Source: a virus. Taken from it: DNA of 46,392 nt. Position 1 is the stretch's first letter. Each line of letters starts with the position of its first letter. This document shows positions 1 through 46,392 of the stretch, piece after piece. The translations under genes and the position numbers were made by a program. The stretch covers positions 1-46,392 of IMG/VR virus record IMGVR_UViG_3300030101_002457. One strand, written 5' to 3'. The notes beneath the pieces are model-generated. The model was not told where the DNA came from. It worked only from the letters and a program-made list of their open reading frames with translations, and made no database searches.

Positions 1-821
1 CTTCTTCAATAGATACCCATTTTACGTGACTAACTGGATGCTCTGACTGCATTATCATTCCTCATATGTTTTGGTATAAATTTCAAATCATTTTCTGGTC
101 TACCCCAATTTATCTTCTGACCTCTCTTGAATTTCAAAAAATTTATTGTTTCTGGTCTGCCAAGAAAATTATCAATCTTCGTAAAATGCCAATCATTTGC
201 AAGTATTGATAGTATCTCGTTCTTATGCCTTACTTCAGATAGAGCCATTCCATCAAATTTCTTATCAAGGTCTGAGAATTTTTTATTAAATAATGTTTTT
301 CGCTCTTCTGTTTGTATGAGGTTATCAACAAGGTAATCTCTATATTCCTTCCATGAACTAAACATGAACGGCAATTCTTTAACAGAAAACATATCTTTCT
401 TATTGATATGCTTTGTCTGATTAACTCCGCTGAGTCTTTTGTTAAGAGCATTCCAAGTATCCGCTTCTAGCTCATGCAGATAATACAATTGGTCTACTGC
501 TGTTTCATGGTGTAAATTGGAAACACGCATTTTGATTGGTGCGATTCCATACCTATAAAATTCATCATATATCTTGCAATAATCCCAATTATTATCATGG
601 ATTGCTTTCCAAATATCTTTGTATGACCAATCATAAATGAAGTTAAAAACATAATGATTCAACTTCTCATCATATTTTTTACCATAAGTGATGTGTTTAT
701 AGGTTTGCCCTACTGTCAGACCTGCTCTCCTGTTTGGACTTTCTTCGGCTCTTACACCGCCAAGGAGAGCTACGCTTCTATCAGGGTAATGATGTTTCAA
801 GTATTTTGGGAATAACCCATG
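1..821. repeat. Left copy of imperfect terminal redundancy
   Basis: This segment is repeated in the same orientation at 45616-46392. The copies differ by roughly two dozen single-base changes and by a 44-base stretch present only here (about 203-246). It covers the 3' part of the IbrA-like gene and the first codons of the IbrB-like gene. The redundancy shows that the contig closes into a circle of about 45.6 kb. Because the copies differ, it is more likely overlap between co-occurring strains than an exact packaged terminal repeat. Confidence 0.85.
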
Positions 822-1220
822 AAACCTATCAGTATTATAAACATTATCTTTGATGCTAATTTCTTCTTTTTTCCTCATCCATTCTTCATTTGGTGACCAA
901 CAGTTTAACCAAGGGTTATTCATTGAAGTCGCATTGAATAATTTTATTGGAATTTGCAACCAATGTGGATTAACTCTTGTATCTTGCATTACTCTGCGTA
1001 CATATTCGATAACAAGATTCCATTCCGCTTCTTGATCTATAAACATGACTGTTAAAGGGAGTCTTTTCTTTTTTTCTGCAATCATAAGCGCAAGATTGAG
1101 TATTACAGTGCTATCTTTGCCACCAGAAAACGAAACTACTACTTCATCAAACTCTTCAAATAAATATTCTAATCTTTTTAAAGACGCATCAAAAACATTT
1201 TGATCTAAAAATATTTTCAA
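30..1220 (-). CDS. IbrA-like PAPS-reductase-family protein (DUF3440)
   Basis: A 396-residue adenine-nucleotide alpha-hydrolase-fold protein. The PP-loop motif SGGKDS lies near residue 32, in the strand-loop-helix context of phosphoadenosine phosphosulfate reductases. A basic region about residues 150-185 (GGVRAEESPNRRAG) and a long C-terminal part fit the DUF3440/IbrA branch rather than metabolic CysH. IbrA with its ParB-like partner IbrB is known in E. coli as a prophage-associated activator pair, and its chemistry is unsettled. The start is TTG, directly after the TAA of the upstream ParB gene and behind a GAGGG stretch. Across the circular junction the 3' end overlaps the start of the IbrB-like gene, so this is one operon. 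Adenylation or sulfur chemistry on DNA or protein is inference. A frameshifted second copy lies at the right end. Confidence 0.85.
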   Translation of the reverse strand: MKIFLDQNVFDASLKRLEYLFEEFDEVVVSFSGGKDSTVILNLALMIAEKKKRLPLTVMFIDQEAEWNLVIEYVRRVMQDTRVNPHWLQIPIKLFNATSMNNPWLNCWSPNEEWMRKKEEISIKDNVYNTDRFHGLFPKYLKHHYPDRSVALLGGVRAEESPNRRAGLTVGQTYKHITYGKKYDEKLNHYVFNFIYDWSYKDIWKAIHDNNWDYCKIYDEFYRYGIAPIKMRVSNLHHETAVDQLYYLHELEADTWNALNKRLSGVNQTKHINKKDMFSVKELPFMFSSWKEYRDYLVDNLIQTEERKTLFNKKFSDLDKKFDGMALSEVRHKNEILSILANDWHFTKIDNFLGRPETINFLKFKRGQKINWGRPENDLKFIPKHMRNDNAVRASS

Positions 1221-1796
1221 TTACATACCCTCAAACTTAAATGATTTTGAACAATGTGGACAAACAACCTCTGTAGCTCTTAAAGATACATCTTGATTTG
1301 TTCTGTTTATAGAACCGCCTAATGATTCTTGAGCGTTTTCTAAATCCTCATCTGTTATATCAGAATAAAACGTTTCTGGGTTTGTATCTGGTGAAAAGTT
1401 CATAGATTCAAACTCCTCACTCATACCTGTCAAATCAATATTGAAATCTGTTTCTGCAATCTGTTTTAACTCAGAAAACAATAATCCATAATCCCAATCG
1501 CCTTTTTCTGCGATTTTATTGTCTGCGATTATGTATGCTTTTTTTTGCTCATCACTCCATCCGTGAGCTTCTATACATGGAACTTTATCCAGACCGAGCT
1601 TGATTGCCGCATACAATCTGCCATGCCCTGCCAAGATTTCATTCTGTTCATCTATTAATATTGGTATCGTAAAACCCCATTCTTTTATACTTTCCGCTAA
1701 CAAATCTACTTGGAAATCTGGGTGCATTTTGGGGTTTGTCATATAAGGCGTTAAATCTTCAACCTTTTTTTCGACAATTATCTTGGATGATTCCAT
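1221..1796 (-). CDS. ParB N-terminal-domain protein
   Basis: A 191-residue protein with a ParB/sulfiredoxin-like domain at about residues 10-105, including the GHGR motif (LAGHGRLYAAI) in the nucleotide-binding position. Such domains often precede DNA methyltransferase domains in phage proteins. Here there is no methyltransferase, only a short C-terminal tail with a CPHC knuckle. A longer reading from 1961 is possible, but its N-terminus is hydrophobic and not ParB-like. ATG at 1796 follows AGAGG at proper spacing, so I use it. It is the first gene of the late-strand operon and abuts the IbrA-like gene. Its promoter appears to share the palindrome at 1866-1881 with the divergent amidoligase gene. 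Function is unknown; nucleotide-dependent DNA binding is the family expectation. Confidence 0.8.
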   Translation of the reverse strand: MESSKIIVEKKVEDLTPYMTNPKMHPDFQVDLLAESIKEWGFTIPILIDEQNEILAGHGRLYAAIKLGLDKVPCIEAHGWSDEQKKAYIIADNKIAEKGDWDYGLLFSELKQIAETDFNIDLTGMSEEFESMNFSPDTNPETFYSDITDEDLENAQESLGGSINRTNQDVSLRATEVVCPHCSKSFKFEGM

Positions 1797-1865
1797 AGTT
1801 TTCCTCTTAAACATATAAAATAATGTAACATAATCAAAAAAAAATGAAAATAATATAATTTTGTT

Positions 1866-1881
1866 GTTGACATATGCCAAC
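1866..1881. promoter_or_regulatory. Divergent promoter/operator O1
   Basis: The palindrome GTTGACATATGCCAAC provides a -35 box on each strand. On plus, TTGACA is followed after 17 bases by CATTAT, leading to the amidoligase gene. On minus, TTGGCA is followed after 17 bases by TATATT, leading to the ParB gene. The same 16-bp pattern recurs at 7493, 13335 and 38796, and weakly at 38728. A single bound dimer could shut off both directions. Confidence 0.65.
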
Positions 1882-1939
1882 CAATAGTTCATTATCATTA
1901 TATAACGTGGCTGTAACCACATAAAAAATGGAGCAAAAA

Positions 1940-2950
1940 ATGGAATATTACGGAACAACATTTGGAGTTGAAGTTGAATTCAACAGAGAAAGTCTTTCAC
2001 GTTTAGAAAGGCATATGAACGCTGAACTAGAACAACATAATATCAGCGTTGCCTATGAGGGCTATAACCATACAACCAGAAACCATTGGAAATTAGTAAC
2101 GGATGCTAGTTGTGGTTCAGAGTTGGTAAGCCCTGTCTTACAAGGTAGCGCAGGTTTTCGTGAATTAAAACTTGTCTTACAAGCTTTGAATTCGTTTGGA
2201 ATTACAGAGCCAGAGTCCACTTGTGGTGTTCATATTCACTTGAAACCAAGAAATCTAACAGTTGAAAAAGTAAAAAATATCTATAAAAGGTATGCAAAAT
2301 ATGAGAGAGAAATAGATTCATGGATGCCTCCTAGTAGGCGTGGGAATCGCAACCAATGGTGTTACAGCATCATCTCGAATGCAAACGCTCCTGCATTTGA
2401 GGCTTATCAAGGAAATAGTTTTTATGAGTTGGTTGCGAGCCTTCCCAATTCAATAAGGTATCACAAAGTAAACCTGAGATCTCTTACTCGCTATGGCACT
2501 GTTGAGTTTCGTCAGCATTCTGCAAGCACGGATTATACAAAAATTTCTAATTGGATTAAATTTCTAATTGAGTTTTGTGAACAGGAGGAGAGCGATTCTA
2601 ATTTCTCAACCACCTATAGAAGAAGAAGAAAAGTTGCTTATGGTGAAATCCGCGAACAAGTCGCAAATATGGGTTGGGATTTACGCTATGCAGGTCATCA
2701 ATACAAATTGTTCAATGAGCATGGTGAATTAGTTGAAACTATCCAATTTTGTGTTCTCGAAGAAATGTATGAACCAAACAGCAGAACACTAACACAGCAT
2801 TTTGTCAATTGGTTTACATCTCATTTTCCTGTAGCTGTAGAAAACAATTCTGTTTTTGCAGGAGTGCCAGAAGAATTGCAAAACTATTTCGCAGAACGTG
2901 TAGAAGAGCATATTGCACGTCACCCAAACCACCCCACAAACATTCGTTAA
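1940..2950 (+). CDS. Amidoligase (Amidoligase_2-like, COOH-NH2 ligase)
   Basis: A 336-residue protein with features of the glutamine-synthetase-fold amidoligases. It opens with FGVEVEF (acidic metal/ATP-binding strand), has GVHIHLKPRN near residue 95 and VEFRQHSAS near residue 185 followed by an aromatic helix, as in that family. Such enzymes use ATP to join a carboxylate to an amine, often a glutamyl group on a peptide or metabolite. The next gene is a gamma-glutamylcyclotransferase homologue, the partner typically found beside amidoligases. The start at 1940 is preferred over ATG at 1928 because the first ATG supplies the GGAG ribosome-binding site, as in this phage's other early leaders. 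The substrate is unknown: peptide, host-protein or cell-envelope modification are all open. Family call confident, role inferred. Confidence 0.8.
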   Translation: MEYYGTTFGVEVEFNRESLSRLERHMNAELEQHNISVAYEGYNHTTRNHWKLVTDASCGSELVSPVLQGSAGFRELKLVLQALNSFGITEPESTCGVHIHLKPRNLTVEKVKNIYKRYAKYEREIDSWMPPSRRGNRNQWCYSIISNANAPAFEAYQGNSFYELVASLPNSIRYHKVNLRSLTRYGTVEFRQHSASTDYTKISNWIKFLIEFCEQEESDSNFSTTYRRRRKVAYGEIREQVANMGWDLRYAGHQYKLFNEHGELVETIQFCVLEEMYEPNSRTLTQHFVNWFTSHFPVAVENNSVFAGVPEELQNYFAERVEEHIARHPNHPTNIR

Positions 2951-2963
2951 GGAGAAAAGAAGA

Positions 2964-3395
2964 ATGATTTATTTAGCATATGGTTCAAACTTGAATAAAG
3001 AACAAATGAAATTTAGATGTCCCAAGGCAAAACCAAGAGGATTTATTATGTTGCCAGATTACAAAATGATATTCAGAGGTGTAGCCGATATGATTCCACT
3101 CAAGGGTCATTACTGCCCTGTAGGTATTTGGGATATCACAAAAGATTGTGAGATTGCACTTGATAGATATGAGGGTTTTCCACACTTATACAGAAAAGAA
3201 TATTTCATCAACAATGAAACTGATGAAATCATGATGGCATATGTTATGAACACAAATGATTTCTCAATGCCAAGTAAACTTTATTACAGCATCATAGAAA
3301 AAGGATACGAGGATTTCAACATTCCTAAAAATTCCTTGTTTGACTCATTAAATTGGACTAATGAAAGAGAACAGGAAATCTCATATTCCGCTTAA
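2964..3395 (+). CDS. Gamma-glutamylcyclotransferase-like (GGCT/AIG2) protein
   Basis: A 143-residue GGCT-fold protein. The N-terminus has the substrate-binding YLAYGSNLN motif (residues 3-11). The segment ALDRYEGFP near residue 70 carries the family's catalytic glutamate. Cyclotransferases of this family release gamma-glutamyl groups as 5-oxoproline. In amidoligase neighbourhoods they are thought to edit or reverse the ligase product. The start at 2964 follows AAGGAG; an upstream in-frame start at 2913 would overlap the amidoligase gene and lacks family similarity. It is co-transcribed with the amidoligase, about 13 bases downstream, and followed by hairpins at 3420-3457. Confidence 0.85.
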   Translation: MIYLAYGSNLNKEQMKFRCPKAKPRGFIMLPDYKMIFRGVADMIPLKGHYCPVGIWDITKDCEIALDRYEGFPHLYRKEYFINNETDEIMMAYVMNTNDFSMPSKLYYSIIEKGYEDFNIPKNSLFDSLNWTNEREQEISYSA

Positions 3396-3419
3396 TATTC
3401 TAGGGTACAAACATACATG

Positions 3420-3465
3420 GGCTATCTCTAAAGCCTGTGTATGGGCTTCTGAGAGCCTCGGTTTT
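3420..3465 (+). terminator. Possible tandem-hairpin terminator after the amidoligase/GGCT pair
   Basis: Two short inverted repeats follow each other: GGCT/AGCC at 3420-3435 and GGCTT/GAGCC at 3444-3457, the latter leading into CGGTTTTATA. The inner AGCC and second GGCT could also pair with each other. The stems are short, so support is moderate. It lies between convergent genes. Confidence 0.4.
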
Positions 3466-3487
3466 ATATAGAATCTTCATTATAATA

Positions 3488-4129
3488 TCATTTTGATGTA
3501 TTTTTACGCAAACGATGAATAGTTTTATCCAGACGTTTTGAGTTCAATTCATTTCCTCTAAAGGCAAGATTATGTTTGATTGCAGATTGTGCTGTGTAAC
3601 CCATACCACACATAGGGTCTAATACGATTCCTGTTCCTTTTATTTCTTTTGATAATATTTTTTCAAATATGAATATAGATAAATCACCACCACGATATTT
3701 CAAACACCCTGTTTTGAATTCATCATCTATTTTAAATATGCCAGATTTACTAAAAACATGAACATCAAGTGGCAATAACTTTTTTGAATTGCCATACAGA
3801 GATGTGCAGACACCACCATGTATAAATCCGTAACTATCTACATAAGATATTATATCATCTCGCCACTTTTCACCATATTCTATTACAACAACATCTTTGG
3901 CAAATTTTCTAAAGATTCCAAAAAGAGTAGGCAAAAATTTTTCGTACTTTATATCAGTCGGCTCTGTCCCTGTATGACGTTTGTTTATTGTCTGCCAATA
4001 TTTTAAATTGCCCTGACCCCAAGGTGGATCGCTATATATTAAATCAGCCATTTCATTTTCCATGAGATTATCTATCCCACTCATAATATCGCCATGTTGC
4101 ACTTTATGTTTGCCAATTTTTGTTATCAT
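3488..4129 (-). CDS. DNA methyltransferase (N6-adenine/N4-cytosine type)
   Basis: A 213-residue SAM-dependent DNA methyltransferase. The catalytic DPPW motif is at residues 34-37. A SAM-binding motif I-like segment (VLDPMCGMGYTA) lies near residue 170, so the motif order is the permuted one of the beta group. No restriction endonuclease is adjacent, so it is an orphan. Protection of phage DNA from host restriction is the usual reading; regulation of phage genes or packaging is also possible. It lies 2 bases downstream of another methyltransferase gene, with AAGGAG about 11 bases before its ATG. The recognition sequence cannot be predicted. Confidence 0.8.
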   Translation of the reverse strand: MITKIGKHKVQHGDIMSGIDNLMENEMADLIYSDPPWGQGNLKYWQTINKRHTGTEPTDIKYEKFLPTLFGIFRKFAKDVVVIEYGEKWRDDIISYVDSYGFIHGGVCTSLYGNSKKLLPLDVHVFSKSGIFKIDDEFKTGCLKYRGGDLSIFIFEKILSKEIKGTGIVLDPMCGMGYTAQSAIKHNLAFRGNELNSKRLDKTIHRLRKNTSK

Positions 4130-4131
4130 TC

Positions 4132-4812
4132 TTATCTAACTCCTTGGATAGTTCCTTCGATTATCCAATACTGACACCCTTCTAGGTTTCCAGAATAGGT
4201 TAACATCGTTTGTTGTTGTAATAAATTTTCAAAGGATAACTTTTCTGCTCCTAATACATCAAAAGATAAACCAAATATGTTATATTCAAAACCATGAAGA
4301 TTTAATTCTCTTCTTATATCTTCTAATTTATATTTATAAGAATGACCTTCAATATAACTTGGACTGTATCCTTCTGCATACACAACTGATAAAAACCTTG
4401 AATCTTGATGATATTTATCTTCTTCATAATCAAGATTACATTTGTGTGCAATAATCCAATCTTCTATTCCCATATAATTCATCTGACCGAATACAGAGAG
4501 AACAATATCCCAAAGACCGCCATAAACATTAGTAAGAGCTTCTTGTTGTTTGAAATCATAATCAGGATATTTTATTTTTGCTTCTTTAAGCATATTTTCT
4601 GATATATCTACACCAAGATAATGTTTAACAGGAAGCCGTCCGACTGTAATCATATTTCCTGTTCCGCAACCTATATCTAATATCATTTTGCCATTCAAAT
4701 TTTCTGGCAAAAAAGATGCGATTATTTCTTCTTCGACAAAACACTTAGTTGTTTTATATTTTGAATCATACCTTGAGGCTAATTGATTATATATTTTTTT
4801 GATTTCTTCCAT
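4132..4812 (-). CDS. Class I SAM-dependent methyltransferase, small-molecule type
   Basis: A 226-residue protein with canonical motif I ILDIGCGTGNM (about residues 44-54), motif II YLGVDIS and a YDSKY-like N-terminal segment, as in ubiquinone/UbiE-like and other Methyltransf_11/25 enzymes. It lacks a DPPY-type motif, so DNA is not the obvious substrate. The start at 4812 has no Shine-Dalgarno sequence. TATAAA ends about 8 bases before the ATG, suggesting a leaderless transcript. It is transcribed with the DNA methyltransferase. Substrate unknown. Confidence 0.75.
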   Translation of the reverse strand: MEEIKKIYNQLASRYDSKYKTTKCFVEEEIIASFLPENLNGKMILDIGCGTGNMITVGRLPVKHYLGVDISENMLKEAKIKYPDYDFKQQEALTNVYGGLWDIVLSVFGQMNYMGIEDWIIAHKCNLDYEEDKYHQDSRFLSVVYAEGYSPSYIEGHSYKYKLEDIRRELNLHGFEYNIFGLSFDVLGAEKLSFENLLQQQTMLTYSGNLEGCQYWIIEGTIQGVR

Positions 4813-7492: not shown

Positions 7493-7508
7493 GTTGACAA
7501 GTGCCAAT
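7493..7508. promoter_or_regulatory. Promoter/operator O2 (divergent)
   Basis: GTTGACAAGTGCCAAT: TTGACA of the plus-strand promoter is embedded in the palindrome; TATCGT lies 17 bases on and a better TATAAT 22 bases on. On minus, TTGGCA is followed after 16 bases by TATAAA, aimed at the replication operon. Confidence 0.6.
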
Positions 7509-13334: not shown

Positions 13335-13350
13335 GTTGACAATGGGCAAC
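13335..13350 (+). promoter_or_regulatory. Promoter/operator O3
   Basis: GTTGACAATGGGCAAC contains TTGACA; TATATT follows after 17 bases, with TATAAT slightly further on. It drives the plus-strand operon that starts at 13398 and contains the XRE regulator, compatible with autoregulation. Confidence 0.65.
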
Positions 13351-16143: not shown

Positions 16144-16719
16144 ATGGCTTTAGCAATACCCCCAGAGATAAGAAACAGTGATATTGGTGTTACTTCTTGC
16201 TTAAACTTGACTCAACAAGAAATACAAAAAATTATTGATTTGCATGAAGATGATTCGACTTTACATCGCAAGGGAAAAGTACAGAATGAAGATTCAAATG
16301 TGATTGATTTTAAAAAAAGAGAAGTGGATGTATTTGTCATTCATGAAAAACAAGAATGGGTTGATGAACTGTTAATCCTTGGTGCAAAAAATGCAAATGA
16401 GCTTTTCCAGTTTAATCTCACTGGAATTTTAGAAAGACCCCAACTTTTGAGATATTCTGCTCCATCAATTGGATATGGGTGGCACTTAGATATTGGGACA
16501 GGAGATCATAGTACTCGCAAAATAAGCATCAGTGTTTGTCTAAATGATGATTATGAGGGTGGAGAACTAGCTTTTTTTATGAGTGGTGAACAAAGTATCA
16601 AACCAGATGCAGGAACAGGGATAGCATTTCCATCATTTATGCCTCATAAAGTTACTCCTGTTAGAAAAGGAGAAAGATGGGCATTAGTGTGTTGGATTAC
16701 AGGTGAACCATTCCGATAG
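16144..16719 (+). CDS. 2OG-Fe(II) oxygenase (PKHD-type hydroxylase)
   Basis: A 191-residue protein. The iron site is visible as HLD in SIGYGWHLDIGTGDHS and the distal histidine in FPSFMPHKVTPVRKGERW, whose arginine should bind 2-oxoglutarate. NDDYEGGELAFF is the usual strand between them. Relatives hydroxylate prolyl or other residues and are common in marine phages. The substrate here is unknown. It starts directly after the hydrolase stop and is the last gene of the plus operon, one base from the convergent lysis cassette. Confidence 0.85.
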   Translation: MALAIPPEIRNSDIGVTSCLNLTQQEIQKIIDLHEDDSTLHRKGKVQNEDSNVIDFKKREVDVFVIHEKQEWVDELLILGAKNANELFQFNLTGILERPQLLRYSAPSIGYGWHLDIGTGDHSTRKISISVCLNDDYEGGELAFFMSGEQSIKPDAGTGIAFPSFMPHKVTPVRKGERWALVCWITGEPFR

Positions 16720-16990: not shown

Positions 16991-17361
16991 TTGGTATCTG
17001 TTTTCTTTAACTTGTCATATGATCTCATTCCACCGATTCCTAGCATACTCAAAAGAAGCGGCATCATCGTACTTGTATCTGCCTGATTTATATCTATTCC
17101 AAACCCTTCACATATTGGAATGACAAGGAAGTTAATCGCCATGCCAAGCACCGCCACATATCCTGCTAAAGGTCGCCAACTAGATTGAAACCAGTTCCCC
17201 TTTGCATCCAGTTTCAAAACTTCTATTTGTTGAAGTGCTAATTCCTGAGAATGTTTCTCTGACATCGTTGCGATTTCGTGTGCCAGTTTTGCCTTCTGGT
17301 CTTTATCTTCTATAAACTTATCAAGCAACCCAGATACAGGAGCAATTAAACTTTGAATCAT
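16987..17361 (-). CDS. Holin (3TM_holin-like)
   Basis: A 124-residue protein with an amphipathic N-terminal helix rich in E/K/Q. WRPLAGYVAVLGMAINFLVIPI follows, then a second hydrophobic stretch (MMPLLLSMLGIGG) and a basic tail. The SWRPLAGY motif is characteristic of the 3TM holin family found beside phage and GTA lysozymes. It should form the membrane lesions that release the endolysin. Coupled by ATGA to the nuclease gene. Confidence 0.8.
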   Translation of the reverse strand: MIQSLIAPVSGLLDKFIEDKDQKAKLAHEIATMSEKHSQELALQQIEVLKLDAKGNWFQSSWRPLAGYVAVLGMAINFLVIPICEGFGIDINQADTSTMMPLLLSMLGIGGMRSYDKLKKTDTK

Positions 17362-17744
17362 ACTAACCGCCTTATTTCTTTTAGCTTTTTAATATCTTTT
17401 GTTTTCGTGCCACCATCATATTTCCACGCATAACCACGCAACACCATTTCTTCGTTGATATTGGTTGCGCTACACCAGATATCCCCAAGCATCCGTCCAT
17501 ATTTTCCATCCTTCTCTGTTGCAACCCAGAGATTATCACAATCCTCTAAACGTCTTTCTAGGAATTCTTTCGCATCTATTCCAAGTGCTTTTTCTTCTGT
17601 ATCTAATGTTCTGGATTCTGGCGCATCTATTCCATTTAACCGAATGCGCTCTTTCTTGAACATATCAAAACCCAAATCAAGAATGACATCGACTGTATCA
17701 CCATCAACAACCTTTACCACTTCTTTGATTTTATATTCATACAT
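17358..17744 (-). CDS. Staphylococcal-nuclease-like (thermonuclease) protein
   Basis: A 128-residue SNase-domain protein. VVDGDTVDVILDLGF carries the calcium-binding aspartate. RIRLNGIDAPES has the catalytic Arg and Glu. KDGKYGRMLGDI has the second catalytic Arg. It should hydrolyse DNA or RNA with calcium. It sits between lysozyme and holin in an overlapping run, an odd place for a nuclease. Degrading host nucleic acid at lysis is a possible role. No signal peptide is seen. Confidence 0.85.
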   Translation of the reverse strand: MYEYKIKEVVKVVDGDTVDVILDLGFDMFKKERIRLNGIDAPESRTLDTEEKALGIDAKEFLERRLEDCDNLWVATEKDGKYGRMLGDIWCSATNINEEMVLRGYAWKYDGGTKTKDIKKLKEIRRLV

Positions 17745-37490: not shown

Positions 37491-38342
37491 TCAGTCTCCT
37501 TTTAGGATTTTAGTTAAATTAGCAATCTGCTTGATTACATCTGTTTGCTCATTGTCAACCTCTCGCTGATCTAAAGCCTTGTGAACGGCATTTGCCGCCA
37601 CTTTCGATTCACTCCTAGACAAGCCCCCTTCATCCCGAAAGAAACTTTCCCATTCCCGAACCGATTTGCTCTCACCTTTTACCGCTTGTATCCTTGCGCG
37701 TGGATTCATTGGAAAAGTAACAGCAGAAATCTCCATCAGATCAACTTCTCTGAGCATACGCTTTTTGCCCTTTTCATCATAAGTTGCGCCTTTTGGAGAA
37801 ACCCTGTAGCCGATAGACAAACCATCTATAGCACCCATTTTCATTAATTCATAAACTTCCTTGCCTTTTTGCGTACCCATCGCAAGCCGACCTTTTACCT
37901 TCAACCCTTTTCTATCTTCTAGAATTTCATCAAATACACCAATAGGCTCATCTGCCTTGTGTTGATATAATAGTTTAACGCCTTTTGCGCCCTTTGATGC
38001 GATTGACTTTGCAAACGCACCCTCCATCATTACATCATTTCCTAAATCTTTATTATTGAAGATTGAGCCATAACCAGAAAACATCCCTTTATTTTCATCT
38101 TCATCATCATCGCCATATGCTTTTAATTCAGCCTTTATATCTAAAACTTCTGTTTCCTCAAATTCTTCCATTGATTCTTGATCTAAATCCATCGCACTCT
38201 CCTTGCTATCGCCACGAAAACTGCTGAGACAAATCGCTAACCTCTGGTTTCGGGAATACTCAGCTTGCATTGTCCTGTCCCCCATACATCGTGACATGAA
38301 ATCTTCTTCCCCCTCGCCACTTGATGGTTTTGGTATAGGCAT
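37491..38342 (-). CDS. Prohead maturation protease (HK97 family, S78)
   Basis: A 283-residue serine protease. The core has FSGYGSIFNNKDLGNDVMMEGAF, LLYQHKADEPIG (catalytic His) and GAIDGLSIGY (catalytic Ser), then DLMEISAVTFPMNP. An N-terminal extension (IPKPSSGEGEEDFMSRCMGD) is the motif found in front of several phage head proteases. It should cleave the capsid delta region. ATG at 38342 sits six bases after AGGAG; an ATG two codons earlier directly abuts it. Confidence 0.9.
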   Translation of the reverse strand: MPIPKPSSGEGEEDFMSRCMGDRTMQAEYSRNQRLAICLSSFRGDSKESAMDLDQESMEEFEETEVLDIKAELKAYGDDDEDENKGMFSGYGSIFNNKDLGNDVMMEGAFAKSIASKGAKGVKLLYQHKADEPIGVFDEILEDRKGLKVKGRLAMGTQKGKEVYELMKMGAIDGLSIGYRVSPKGATYDEKGKKRMLREVDLMEISAVTFPMNPRARIQAVKGESKSVREWESFFRDEGGLSRSESKVAANAVHKALDQREVDNEQTDVIKQIANLTKILKGD

Positions 38343-38795: not shown

Positions 38796-38811
38796 GTTGA
38801 CATAAGGCAAC
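38796..38811 (+). promoter_or_regulatory. Promoter/operator O4
   Basis: GTTGACATAAGGCAAC contains TTGACA; TATATA follows after 17 bases and TATAAT after 21. It drives the plus-strand cassette 38859-40180. Confidence 0.65.
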
Positions 38812-39425: not shown

Positions 39426-39692
39426 ATGAAAAACAAAAATGGAAACAAATTCAAAAAACCAAATGTTGATATTTCGTCATATATGAAAAATGACCATCCT
39501 CGACCTTGGAATGAAATAAATGAAGGTGAATGGATTATATTTAATTTTTATATTATGAGGTGGAAAACTTATTCAAGACCTAAATCATTCAACATATATG
39601 GATTCTCTAAAGGTCGACACACTTATGCAAGAATTTATTGGGGCATGAAGGTTCTGCATTTTAAATTTAAAATAAGAAGGATAATAGTATGA
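39426..39692 (+). CDS. Early cassette protein 3, unknown
   Basis: An 88-residue basic and aromatic protein (RPWNEINEGEWIIFNFYIMRWKTYSRPKSFNIYGFSKGRH). The hydrophobic residues look like strands rather than a membrane span. Overlaps the next gene by four bases. Confidence 0.6.
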   Translation: MKNKNGNKFKKPNVDISSYMKNDHPRPWNEINEGEWIIFNFYIMRWKTYSRPKSFNIYGFSKGRHTYARIYWGMKVLHFKFKIRRIIV

Positions 39693-40180
39693 ATATATTT
39701 CATTTAGATAAAGACCCAATAGAATCTGCAAAATATCATTGTGATAAACACGTTTGCAAAATGATTGTTGAAACTGCACAGATGCTTTGCACAGCACATA
39801 GATTACTTGACCCAAAATGGGCTGAAGAGATGAACCTAATGAAAGCAGGATTTGTAAATCACCCAATGACAATATGGGTAAGGACTTCTCAAAATAATTA
39901 CATATGGGCTTTTAATCTTTTTCAAGGATTACTTGATGAATATGAACATCGTTATGGCAGACTTCATAAATGTATGGAACATGAGATGGCGTTGTCATCT
40001 CCACCGCCTATGCCAGATATAGGTTTTACAGAAGTTCCTCTTTGTATGCCAAATCATTGTAAGAATGTTTTGAGCCATATACGATCATATAGAGAATACT
40101 ATCGAAAAGAAAAAAGATACTTCGCCAAATGGACTAAAAGAGATGTTCCTTATTGGTTTGATGATCCTGAGTTAGTCTAG
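39689..40180 (+). CDS. Conserved phage protein, unknown function
   Basis: A 163-residue protein: NIFHLDKDPIESAKYHCDKHVCKMIVETAQMLCTAH, NHPMTIWVRTSQNNYIWAFNLFQGLLDEYEHRYGRLHKC, and RSYREYYRKEKRYFAKWTKRDVPYWF. This is a recognisable family in cyanophages and other marine phages (helical, with conserved His, Cys and Trp), but no activity is known to me. The conserved DKHVCKM and HPMTIW blocks suggest an enzyme or metal site. Its 3' end overlaps the convergent Mu-F-like gene by nine bases. Confidence 0.75.
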   Translation: MNIFHLDKDPIESAKYHCDKHVCKMIVETAQMLCTAHRLLDPKWAEEMNLMKAGFVNHPMTIWVRTSQNNYIWAFNLFQGLLDEYEHRYGRLHKCMEHEMALSSPPPMPDIGFTEVPLCMPNHCKNVLSHIRSYREYYRKEKRYFAKWTKRDVPYWFDDPELV

Positions 40181-45109: not shown

Positions 45110-45673
45110 TCAATCAATCTCAAGTTCTTCTTGTTGCTTTTGTAATAAGATTTGATGTTTACTCACCCATGCCTTGTTATATTCGGCATCTTTGAATAGC
45201 TTTGAAAACCCTGTAATATGCTTTAAACGCAACAATTCATCTGCATCCATTCCAAGGTGATTACATATTTGTGCATCACCCCAACCATTATCAAGCATAT
45301 TAAATACCATATTGGACATACCACTTACGCTATGTGAACCTCTTGCCCTGTTGTGTCTCACTGTTGCCGCCATTCGCTCATTTATTTCTTTTTTGATAAC
45401 AACTATGGGTACACATCCCTCTGTGGCATCTCTAATATCTTTATTGTTTTTACAGGTAAAGTATCGGTGAAACCCATCCACTATTACATATTTCTTTTTT
45501 TCTTCATCCCATATTGTAACGATTGGTTGAGTATAGCCATCATGCTTTATGCTTGTATGCAATAGCTTCATCTCATGTCCTGCGACACTATTTGGATTAT
45601 AATCATTTGGCTCTACTTCTTCAATAGATACCCATTTTACGTGACTAACTGGATGCTCTGACTGCATTATCAT
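45110..45673 (-). CDS. IbrB-like ParB-domain protein
   Basis: A 187-residue ParB/sulfiredoxin-fold protein: WVSIEEVEPNDYNPNSVAGHEMKLLHTSIKHDGYTQPIVT, YVIVDGFHRYFT (GFHR in the ParB GxxR position), then VRHNRARGSHS and a C-terminal helical DNA-binding part (DAQICNHLGMDADELLRLK). This matches IbrB, the partner of IbrA. Its start overlaps the end of the IbrA-like gene by about 29 bases in either terminal copy, so the pair is coupled. The small-terminase gene follows after 22 bases. The function of phage IbrB proteins is not settled; transcription activation is known from E. coli. Confidence 0.85.
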   Translation of the reverse strand: MIMQSEHPVSHVKWVSIEEVEPNDYNPNSVAGHEMKLLHTSIKHDGYTQPIVTIWDEEKKKYVIVDGFHRYFTCKNNKDIRDATEGCVPIVVIKKEINERMAATVRHNRARGSHSVSGMSNMVFNMLDNGWGDAQICNHLGMDADELLRLKHITGFSKLFKDAEYNKAWVSKHQILLQKQQEELEID

Positions 45674-46392
45674 TCCTCATATGTTTTGGTATGAATTTCA
45701 AATCGTTTTCTGGTCTACCCCAATTTATCTTCTGACCCCTCTTGAATTTCAAAAAATTGATTGTTTCTGGTCTGCCAAGAAAATTATCAATCTTCGTAAA
45801 ATGCCAATCATTTGCAAGTATGGATAGTATTTCATTCAAGGTCTGAGAATTTTTTATTAAATAATGTTTTTCGCTCTTCTGTTTGTATGAGGTTATCAAC
45901 AAGGTAATCTCTGTATTCCTTCCATGAACTAAACATGAACGGCAATTCTTTTACAGAAAACATATCTTTTTTATTGATATGCTTTGTCTGATTAACTCCG
46001 CTGAGTCTTTTGTTAAGAGCATTCCAAGTATCAGCTTCTAACTCATGCAGATAATACAATTGGTCTACTGCTGTTTCATGGTGCAAATTTGAAACACGCA
46101 TTTTTATTGGTGCAATACCATATCTATAAAATTCATCATATATCTTGCAATAATCCCAATTATTATCATGGATTGCTTTCCAAATATCTTTATATGACCA
46201 ATCATAAATGAAGTTAAAAACATAGTGATTCAACTTCTCATCATATTTTTTGCCATAAGTGATGTGTTTATAGGTTTGCCCTACAGTCAGACCTGCTCTT
46301 CTGTTTGGACTTTCTTCGGCTCTTACACCGCCAAGGAGAGCTACGCTTCTATCAGGGTAATGATGTTTCAAGTATTTTGGGAATAACCCATG
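45616..46392. repeat. Right copy of imperfect terminal redundancy
   Basis: Repeats 1-821 in direct orientation with about two dozen single-base differences, all silent where both copies can be read in the IbrA-like frame, and a 44-base deletion around 45838. Confidence 0.85.
45645..46392 (-). pseudogene. Partial, frameshifted second copy of the IbrA-like gene
   Basis: This copy encodes the same protein as 30-1220 from the HHYPDRSVALLGG region to the end, cut off by the contig end. A 44-base deletion (not a multiple of three) near 45838 shifts the frame. The upstream part stops just after KKFSDLE at 45832, while the last 61 residues continue in another frame and remain identical to the intact copy. 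The flanks share a TC dinucleotide. It is either a true defective allele in a co-occurring strain or an assembly/sequencing fault at the circle junction; not a separate locus. Confidence 0.75.

Follow-up and report, generated by a model that had tools for sequence, protein, structure and literature searches.

Since 2009, genes for amidoligases and gamma-glutamyl cyclotransferases (GGCTs) carried by phages have been predicted to act on the envelope or the proteins of their hosts and to alter them. As described in excerpts of two reports, a gamma-glutamyl amidoligase and a GGCT belong to a seven-gene “peptidoglycan modification cassette” found in RIO1-like and other podoviruses (PMC5498523), and the same cassette in Pseudomonas phage U17 has been proposed to block superinfection or to prepare lysis (PMC11945000). 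Between them, the same excerpts name the cassette for RIO-1, LUZ24, PaP3, phiEco32, PSA-HP1, and U17 and credit it to Iyer et al. (2009), as a prediction, and to Hardies et al. (2013) (PMC5498523, PMC11945000).

Related gene sets are known from other phages and prophages. Members of the families phrog_2443 and phrog_2520 occur together in prophages of C. clostridioforme LM41 (PMC11318856, as excerpted), and the published part of the account of the Arthrobacter cluster AL phages used here lists the two kinds of gene under the numbers 97/98 (PMC5513430). In an excerpt on Phage-ZRK32, better growth on nitrate or ammonium is tied to four products of that phage, an amidoligase, a GGCT, a glutathione synthase, and a glutamine amidotransferase (PMC10945688). 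No substrate of a phage amidoligase/GGCT cassette is shown in the excerpts of these five reports (PMC5498523, PMC11945000, PMC11318856, PMC5513430, PMC10945688).

The Phage Genome and the Gene Pair

The window, that is, the whole stretch of DNA that was analysed, is a 46,392-base virus record whose gene set includes an HK97-type head, tail, terminase, primase/helicase, Sak annealing protein, and lysozyme. As near-identical repeats lie at its two ends (1-222 against 45616-45837, 97% identity; 265-564 against 45836-46135, 96%), it is probably a nearly complete phage genome. This imperfect terminal repeat (1-564/45616-46135, ~96-97%) duplicates part of a PAPS-reductase-like gene and represents either terminal redundancy or the assembly of two variants. 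Other predicted products include a cell wall hydrolase (PF07486; 15724-16143), a 2OG-Fe(II) oxygenase (16144-16719), a staphylococcal-nuclease-like protein (17358-17744), and a pyrimidine-dimer-glycosylase-like protein (39689-40180). The named phage collection contains no close relative; the nearest match of the terminase, at 47%, is to Roseobacter phage CRP-6, from whose annotation both amidoligase and GGCT are absent.

The two genes of interest are adjacent on the plus strand, the amidoligase at 1940-2950 and the GGCT at 2964-3395, with 13 nt between them. All five motifs on which the original prediction was built are present in the sequence, FGVEVEF, GVHIHL, and VEFRQH in the first reading frame and YGSN and DRYEG in the second. 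A GGAG at 1930-1933 has been placed as the ribosome-binding site for the start at 1940, with a further in-frame ATG at 1928, and a second GGAG (2951-2954) serves the GGCT gene.

The Amidoligase

Pfam and PHROG profiles, alignments, and an AlphaFold model all identify the 336-residue product of the first gene as an Amidoligase_2 protein, a glutamine-synthetase-like (GS-like) carboxylate-amine ligase. The matches to PF12224 (E = 1.3e-29, 104.3 bits against a curated cut-off of 22) and to phrog_2443 (E = 2.4e-40) establish the family membership that had been proposed from motifs. Phage amidoligases are mostly 20-50% identical to this protein. Residues G9, E11, E13, D55, E61, H98, H100, E189, and R191 are invariant both in 20 diverse amidoligases (20-37% identical to that of the window) and in a second set of 24 sequences, and P65 and G96 are invariant in the first set; the metal/ATP-type GxExE, HxH, and ExR residues of the GS-like fold are therefore conserved.

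The GS fold originally proposed also emerges from structure prediction. The best PDB match of the model (mean pLDDT 85.5) is the Escherichia coli carboxylate-amine ligase YbdK (E = 2e-4), followed by glutamine synthetases, so that the model supports this fold independently of sequence. These fold matches have low TM-scores (about 0.4), partly owing to a C-terminal extension that is without counterpart. Fold comparison alone succeeded here, as the sequence profile gave no match in the PDB.

The extension itself (about residues 225-336; 2612-2947, plus strand) is common only to the nearest relatives: a phmmer search with the last 115 residues finds only amidoligase C termini, from about 11 close loci. 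A match of this region to DUF5636 was rejected (E = 0.0023, below the cut-off, in 1 member of 24). Three phage amidoligases of a 24-sequence alignment (A3) match DUF3489 besides Amidoligase_2 (best E = 6.5e-7), so that varied extra domains may be attached to one ligase.

The Gamma-glutamyl Cyclotransferase

The second gene encodes a GGCT/AIG2-like protein of 143 residues with a predicted catalytic Glu70, as judged by profile, alignment, and model. Family and fold agree with the original prediction: the protein matches PF06094 (E = 2.1e-6, 28.8 bits against a curated cut-off of 22.8) and phrog_2520 (E = 1e-24), and both its sequence profile and its model (pLDDT 95.7) place human GGCT first. Across 29 GGCTs, Y6, G7, N9, D67, Y69, E70, and G71 are invariant and S8 is conserved in at least 90%; E70 is aligned with the catalytic glutamate of the human enzyme (a Gln in entry 3cry). 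NCBIfam offers nothing credible for the amidoligase or the GGCT. A different arrangement is seen in a gut phage contig (MT837878; locus L020, 1356-2606), where two tandem GGCT domains occupy one reading frame directly behind the amidoligase.

These comparisons bear on whether the pair synthesizes and turns over glutathione or gamma-glutamylcysteine, a role related to the glutathione-like target considered in the original prediction. YbdK, the nearest solved fold for the ligase, is glutamate-cysteine-ligase-like, and enzymes that degrade glutathione belong to the GGCT superfamily. Against this, the match of the GGCT model to human GGCT (TM 0.75, E = 1.4e-9) is far better than that to ChaC2 (E = 2e-3), with gamma-glutamylamine cyclotransferase also among the weaker matches (E = 5e-4), and the window proteins that were scanned include no recognizable glutathione synthetase. 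By sequence and model, the window enzyme appears much closer to general GGCT (C7orf24) than to the glutathione-specific ChaC enzymes, and a role in glutathione metabolism is accordingly disfavored and considered very improbable.

Linkage of the Two Families

How firmly the two families are associated was assessed by a census anchored on GGCT, because the amidoligase is too diverged to serve as anchor (no relatives came from scanning viral_contigs with it, and in alignment A1 no stretch was sufficiently conserved for a scan). The sampling thus did not favor loci with an amidoligase, and the census says less about amidoligases without GGCT. An amidoligase was present on the same strand in all of the first seven loci. 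A further set, of which a few members overlap these seven, had one in 62 of 80 viral loci, always on the same strand (39 upstream, 23 downstream), and many of the 18 viral loci without one are contigs that are short or truncated. In a set of 80 loci taken from the genomes of bacteria, for the most part Firmicutes, and frequently next to terminase and portal genes as in prophages, an amidoligase was present in 74, again all on the same strand; the amidoligase came first in 72 of the 74, and most gaps were within 100 nt. The conserved neighborhood that had been predicted is thus found in both collections. When loci were anchored instead on the primase, 2 of 23 contained an amidoligase, both as the complete pair.

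Beyond the two genes themselves, nothing recurs in every one of 59 nonredundant loci. Pairwise distances within the two families are correlated (Mantel r = 0.47; largest of 2000 permutations, 0.14), a correlation to which shared phage ancestry contributes. The reverse linkage is looser, with a GGCT (PF06094 or phrog_2520) in four of nine amidoligase-anchored records; three of the five records without GGCT are contigs no longer than 30 kb. Some phages, such as Porphyromonas phage019b, have an amidoligase and no detectable GGCT, a point against the favored mechanism below, and neither PF06094 nor phrog_2520 finds a GGCT in the cassette-bearing Pseudomonas phage HHBS10_2. The census shows a tight link between amidoligase and GGCT in phages and prophages alike, and the pair can stand without the other cassette genes, so that two enzymes are enough to test.

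The Accessory Island in a Sister Phage

Comparison with a sister phage (genome G001, source of locus L102) shows that the pair belongs to an accessory island between core genes, at 30-4812 of the window and 9893-15289 of L102. Core proteins of the two phages are mostly 80-98% identical (primase 96%, terminase 94%, Sak 98%), with lower values for repO (73%) and ParB2 (68%). The island includes, on the minus strand, a PAPS-reductase-like protein with weak similarity to DndC/BrxP (30-1220) and a ParB-like protein, ParB1 (1221-1796). These two recur as a phage pair of their own, with a ParB-like gene in all 12 GGCT-anchored viral loci that have the PAPS-like gene. ParB1, the PAPS-like protein, the methyltransferases MT1 and MT2, the amidoligase, and the GGCT are all found in L102, where they are reordered and only 28-50% identical to their counterparts, so that the island diversifies or is exchanged fast. 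Within it, the order of the pair is kept behind the same promoter, with identities of 38% for the amidoligase and 50% for the GGCT.

The company that the pair keeps might suggest that it takes part in hypermodification of phage DNA together with the neighboring ParB, PAPS-reductase, and methyltransferase genes. Physical proximity speaks for this, as do a ParB-like gene close by in 26 of 59 nonredundant loci and the resemblance of the PAPS-like protein to DndC. However, in the 80 viral loci anchored on GGCT, ParB1 is present in only 22, the PAPS-like gene in 12, MT1 in 2, and MT2 in 5, and several primase-anchored loci without the pair still have a ParB-like gene. Because ParB-like genes occur without the amidoligase/GGCT pair, the genes of the island need not all serve a single pathway; DNA modification was rejected as the main reading on this ground and is held to be very improbable.

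Island turnover also bears on whether the pair gamma-glutamylates and deglutamylates a protein of host or phage, or else a small molecule used in signaling or defense, in the service of takeover or counter-defense rather than acting on the cell wall. Location in a hypervariable island, where ParB-like, PAPS-reductase-like, and methyltransferase genes are its neighbors, is consistent with such a role, and the turnover of six genes in L102 (28-50%) beside a core at 80-98% suits an arms race with the host. The same hypervariability also fits changing envelope structures, however, and the argument from neighbors is weakened by the ParB-like genes that occur there without the pair. Moreover, PADLOC has no match for either protein. 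A protein or small-molecule target is thus regarded as doubtful, though by no means far-fetched.

Transcription of the Pair

Two divergent promoters draw their -35 boxes from a near-palindrome, TTGACATATGCCAA (TTGRCATATGYCAA), at 1867-1880, which is a probable operator. The promoter of the pair, TTGACA-17-CATTAT (1867-1895, plus strand), is 91% identical over 45 nt to that of L102, though the genes behind it have diverged, and this conservation upholds the shared promoter of the original prediction. The opposite promoter, TTGGCA-17-TATATT, faces the ParB-like/PAPS-reductase-like operon. The element TTGACANNNNSCAA occurs in five exact copies in the window, against 0.55 expected from shuffles (1867-1880, 7494-7507, 13336-13349, and 38797-38810, and 37545-37558 on the minus strand), and in five copies in the sister genome as well; these copies may mark a phage-wide regulon. 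An inverted repeat, GTGG...CCAC, at 1907-1920 was dropped, as it is not conserved in L102.

Behind the GGCT stop codon, two RNA hairpins (3412-3457, plus strand) form a probable transcript end between convergent operons (z = -2.35; 6 of 200 shuffles fold equally well), with a terminator-like match at 3443-3458. The promoter before the pair and the hairpins after it make a shared transcript likely. The promoter may be active early in infection, as originally predicted.

A Possible Mechanism

Ligases of the GS fold phosphorylate a gamma-carboxylate, which is then attacked by an amine, and GGCTs cyclize a gamma-glutamyl group that has a free alpha-amine to 5-oxoproline, setting the amine free. 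The favored explanation of the locus, judged to have about an even chance of being right, is a two-gene accessory cassette under its own regulated promoter in which a gamma-glutamyl amide is made by the ligase and trimmed by the GGCT, with an envelope peptide as target. Family, fold, conserved active sites, operon, and linkage, all of them observed, are the basis of this explanation, and the chemistry is that of the two families. By that chemistry, the ligase would spend ATP on activating a gamma-carboxylate, that of glutamate or of a glutamyl residue, and would couple it to an amine, and the GGCT would cleave gamma-glutamyl groups with free alpha-amines to 5-oxoproline, removing or trimming them, so that the pair could both add and remove terminal gamma-glutamyl groups.

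The same reactions could in principle serve metabolism, with ammonia and glutamate channeled through gamma-glutamyl compounds into nitrogen or amino acid metabolism during infection, as the excerpt on Phage-ZRK32 proposes (PMC10945688). The link reported in that excerpt rests on effects of the whole phage, however, not of these genes (PMC10945688); glutathione synthase and amidotransferase were undetected among the window proteins scanned, and spending ATP to arrive at 5-oxoproline would be a costly way to gain nitrogen. A metabolic helper is therefore quite unlikely.

For the favored cassette, the best guess as to target, following the published proposal, is a peptide of the cell envelope, for instance peptidoglycan, which would be altered against superinfection or for lysis. 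The D-Glu of intact peptidoglycan stems is N-acylated by L-Ala. Because a free alpha-amine is needed and this D-Glu is acylated, the GGCT should not cut intact stems, and a target in the wall would require the glutamyl group to be either a terminal cap that has been added or a freed fragment. Searches with Pfam and/or PHROGs of 29 window proteins, with some small reading frames outside the scan, found no ATP-grasp protein, second COOH-NH2 ligase, or glutamine amidotransferase, and for this reason the pair may act on a target other than that of the larger cassettes.

A more far-reaching version would have the two genes alone perform a minimal write-and-erase gamma-glutamylation directed against a conflicting host factor, with the pair exchanged or diversified as one unit. 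The latter is suggested by L102, in which promoter and neighborhood are kept while the pair itself has diverged. As a whole, this version is considered improbable.

Comparison with Known Systems

The pair had been put forward as an undescribed system, a claim that does not survive comparison with the literature: the same gene set is already the peptidoglycan modification cassette of the excerpted reports (PMC5498523, PMC11945000), and the PHROG pair has been noted in prophages (PMC11318856, as excerpted). The window shares with that cassette, so far as excerpts describe it, a GS-like gamma-glutamyl amidoligase and a GGCT in a phage accessory region. Those cassettes comprise five to seven genes, with an ATP-grasp protein, a second ligase, and a glutamine amidotransferase included, whereas the window has two. 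C. clostridioforme LM41 and other Firmicute prophages likewise have members of both PHROG families at short distance from each other, but differ in their distant sequences, their hosts, and their position before the terminase.

Adjacent or close amidoligase and GGCT genes are also seen in the Arthrobacter cluster AL phages, Geobacillus phage GR1, and Bacillus phage 035JT001, although in the Arthrobacter phages the order is the reverse of that in the window and an amidotransferase-like gene follows, and in 035JT001 the two genes are about 1 kb apart. Occurrence of the pair in phages of culturable hosts (Bacillus subtilis phage 035JT001, Geobacillus phage GR1, and Arthrobacter phage Kovu) makes it experimentally accessible. 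Among cellular enzymes, YbdK resembles the window amidoligase in predicted fold at about 10% identity, and human GGCT resembles its partner in predicted fold and catalytic glutamate at about 23% identity; at these distances the substrate of neither is transferable.

New in the present analysis are the quantified linkage, the match to general GGCT rather than the ChaC type, the two-gene form, and, from the sister phage, the paired divergence of amidoligase and GGCT. The window pair thus adds to a known kind of cassette its minimal, two-gene form.
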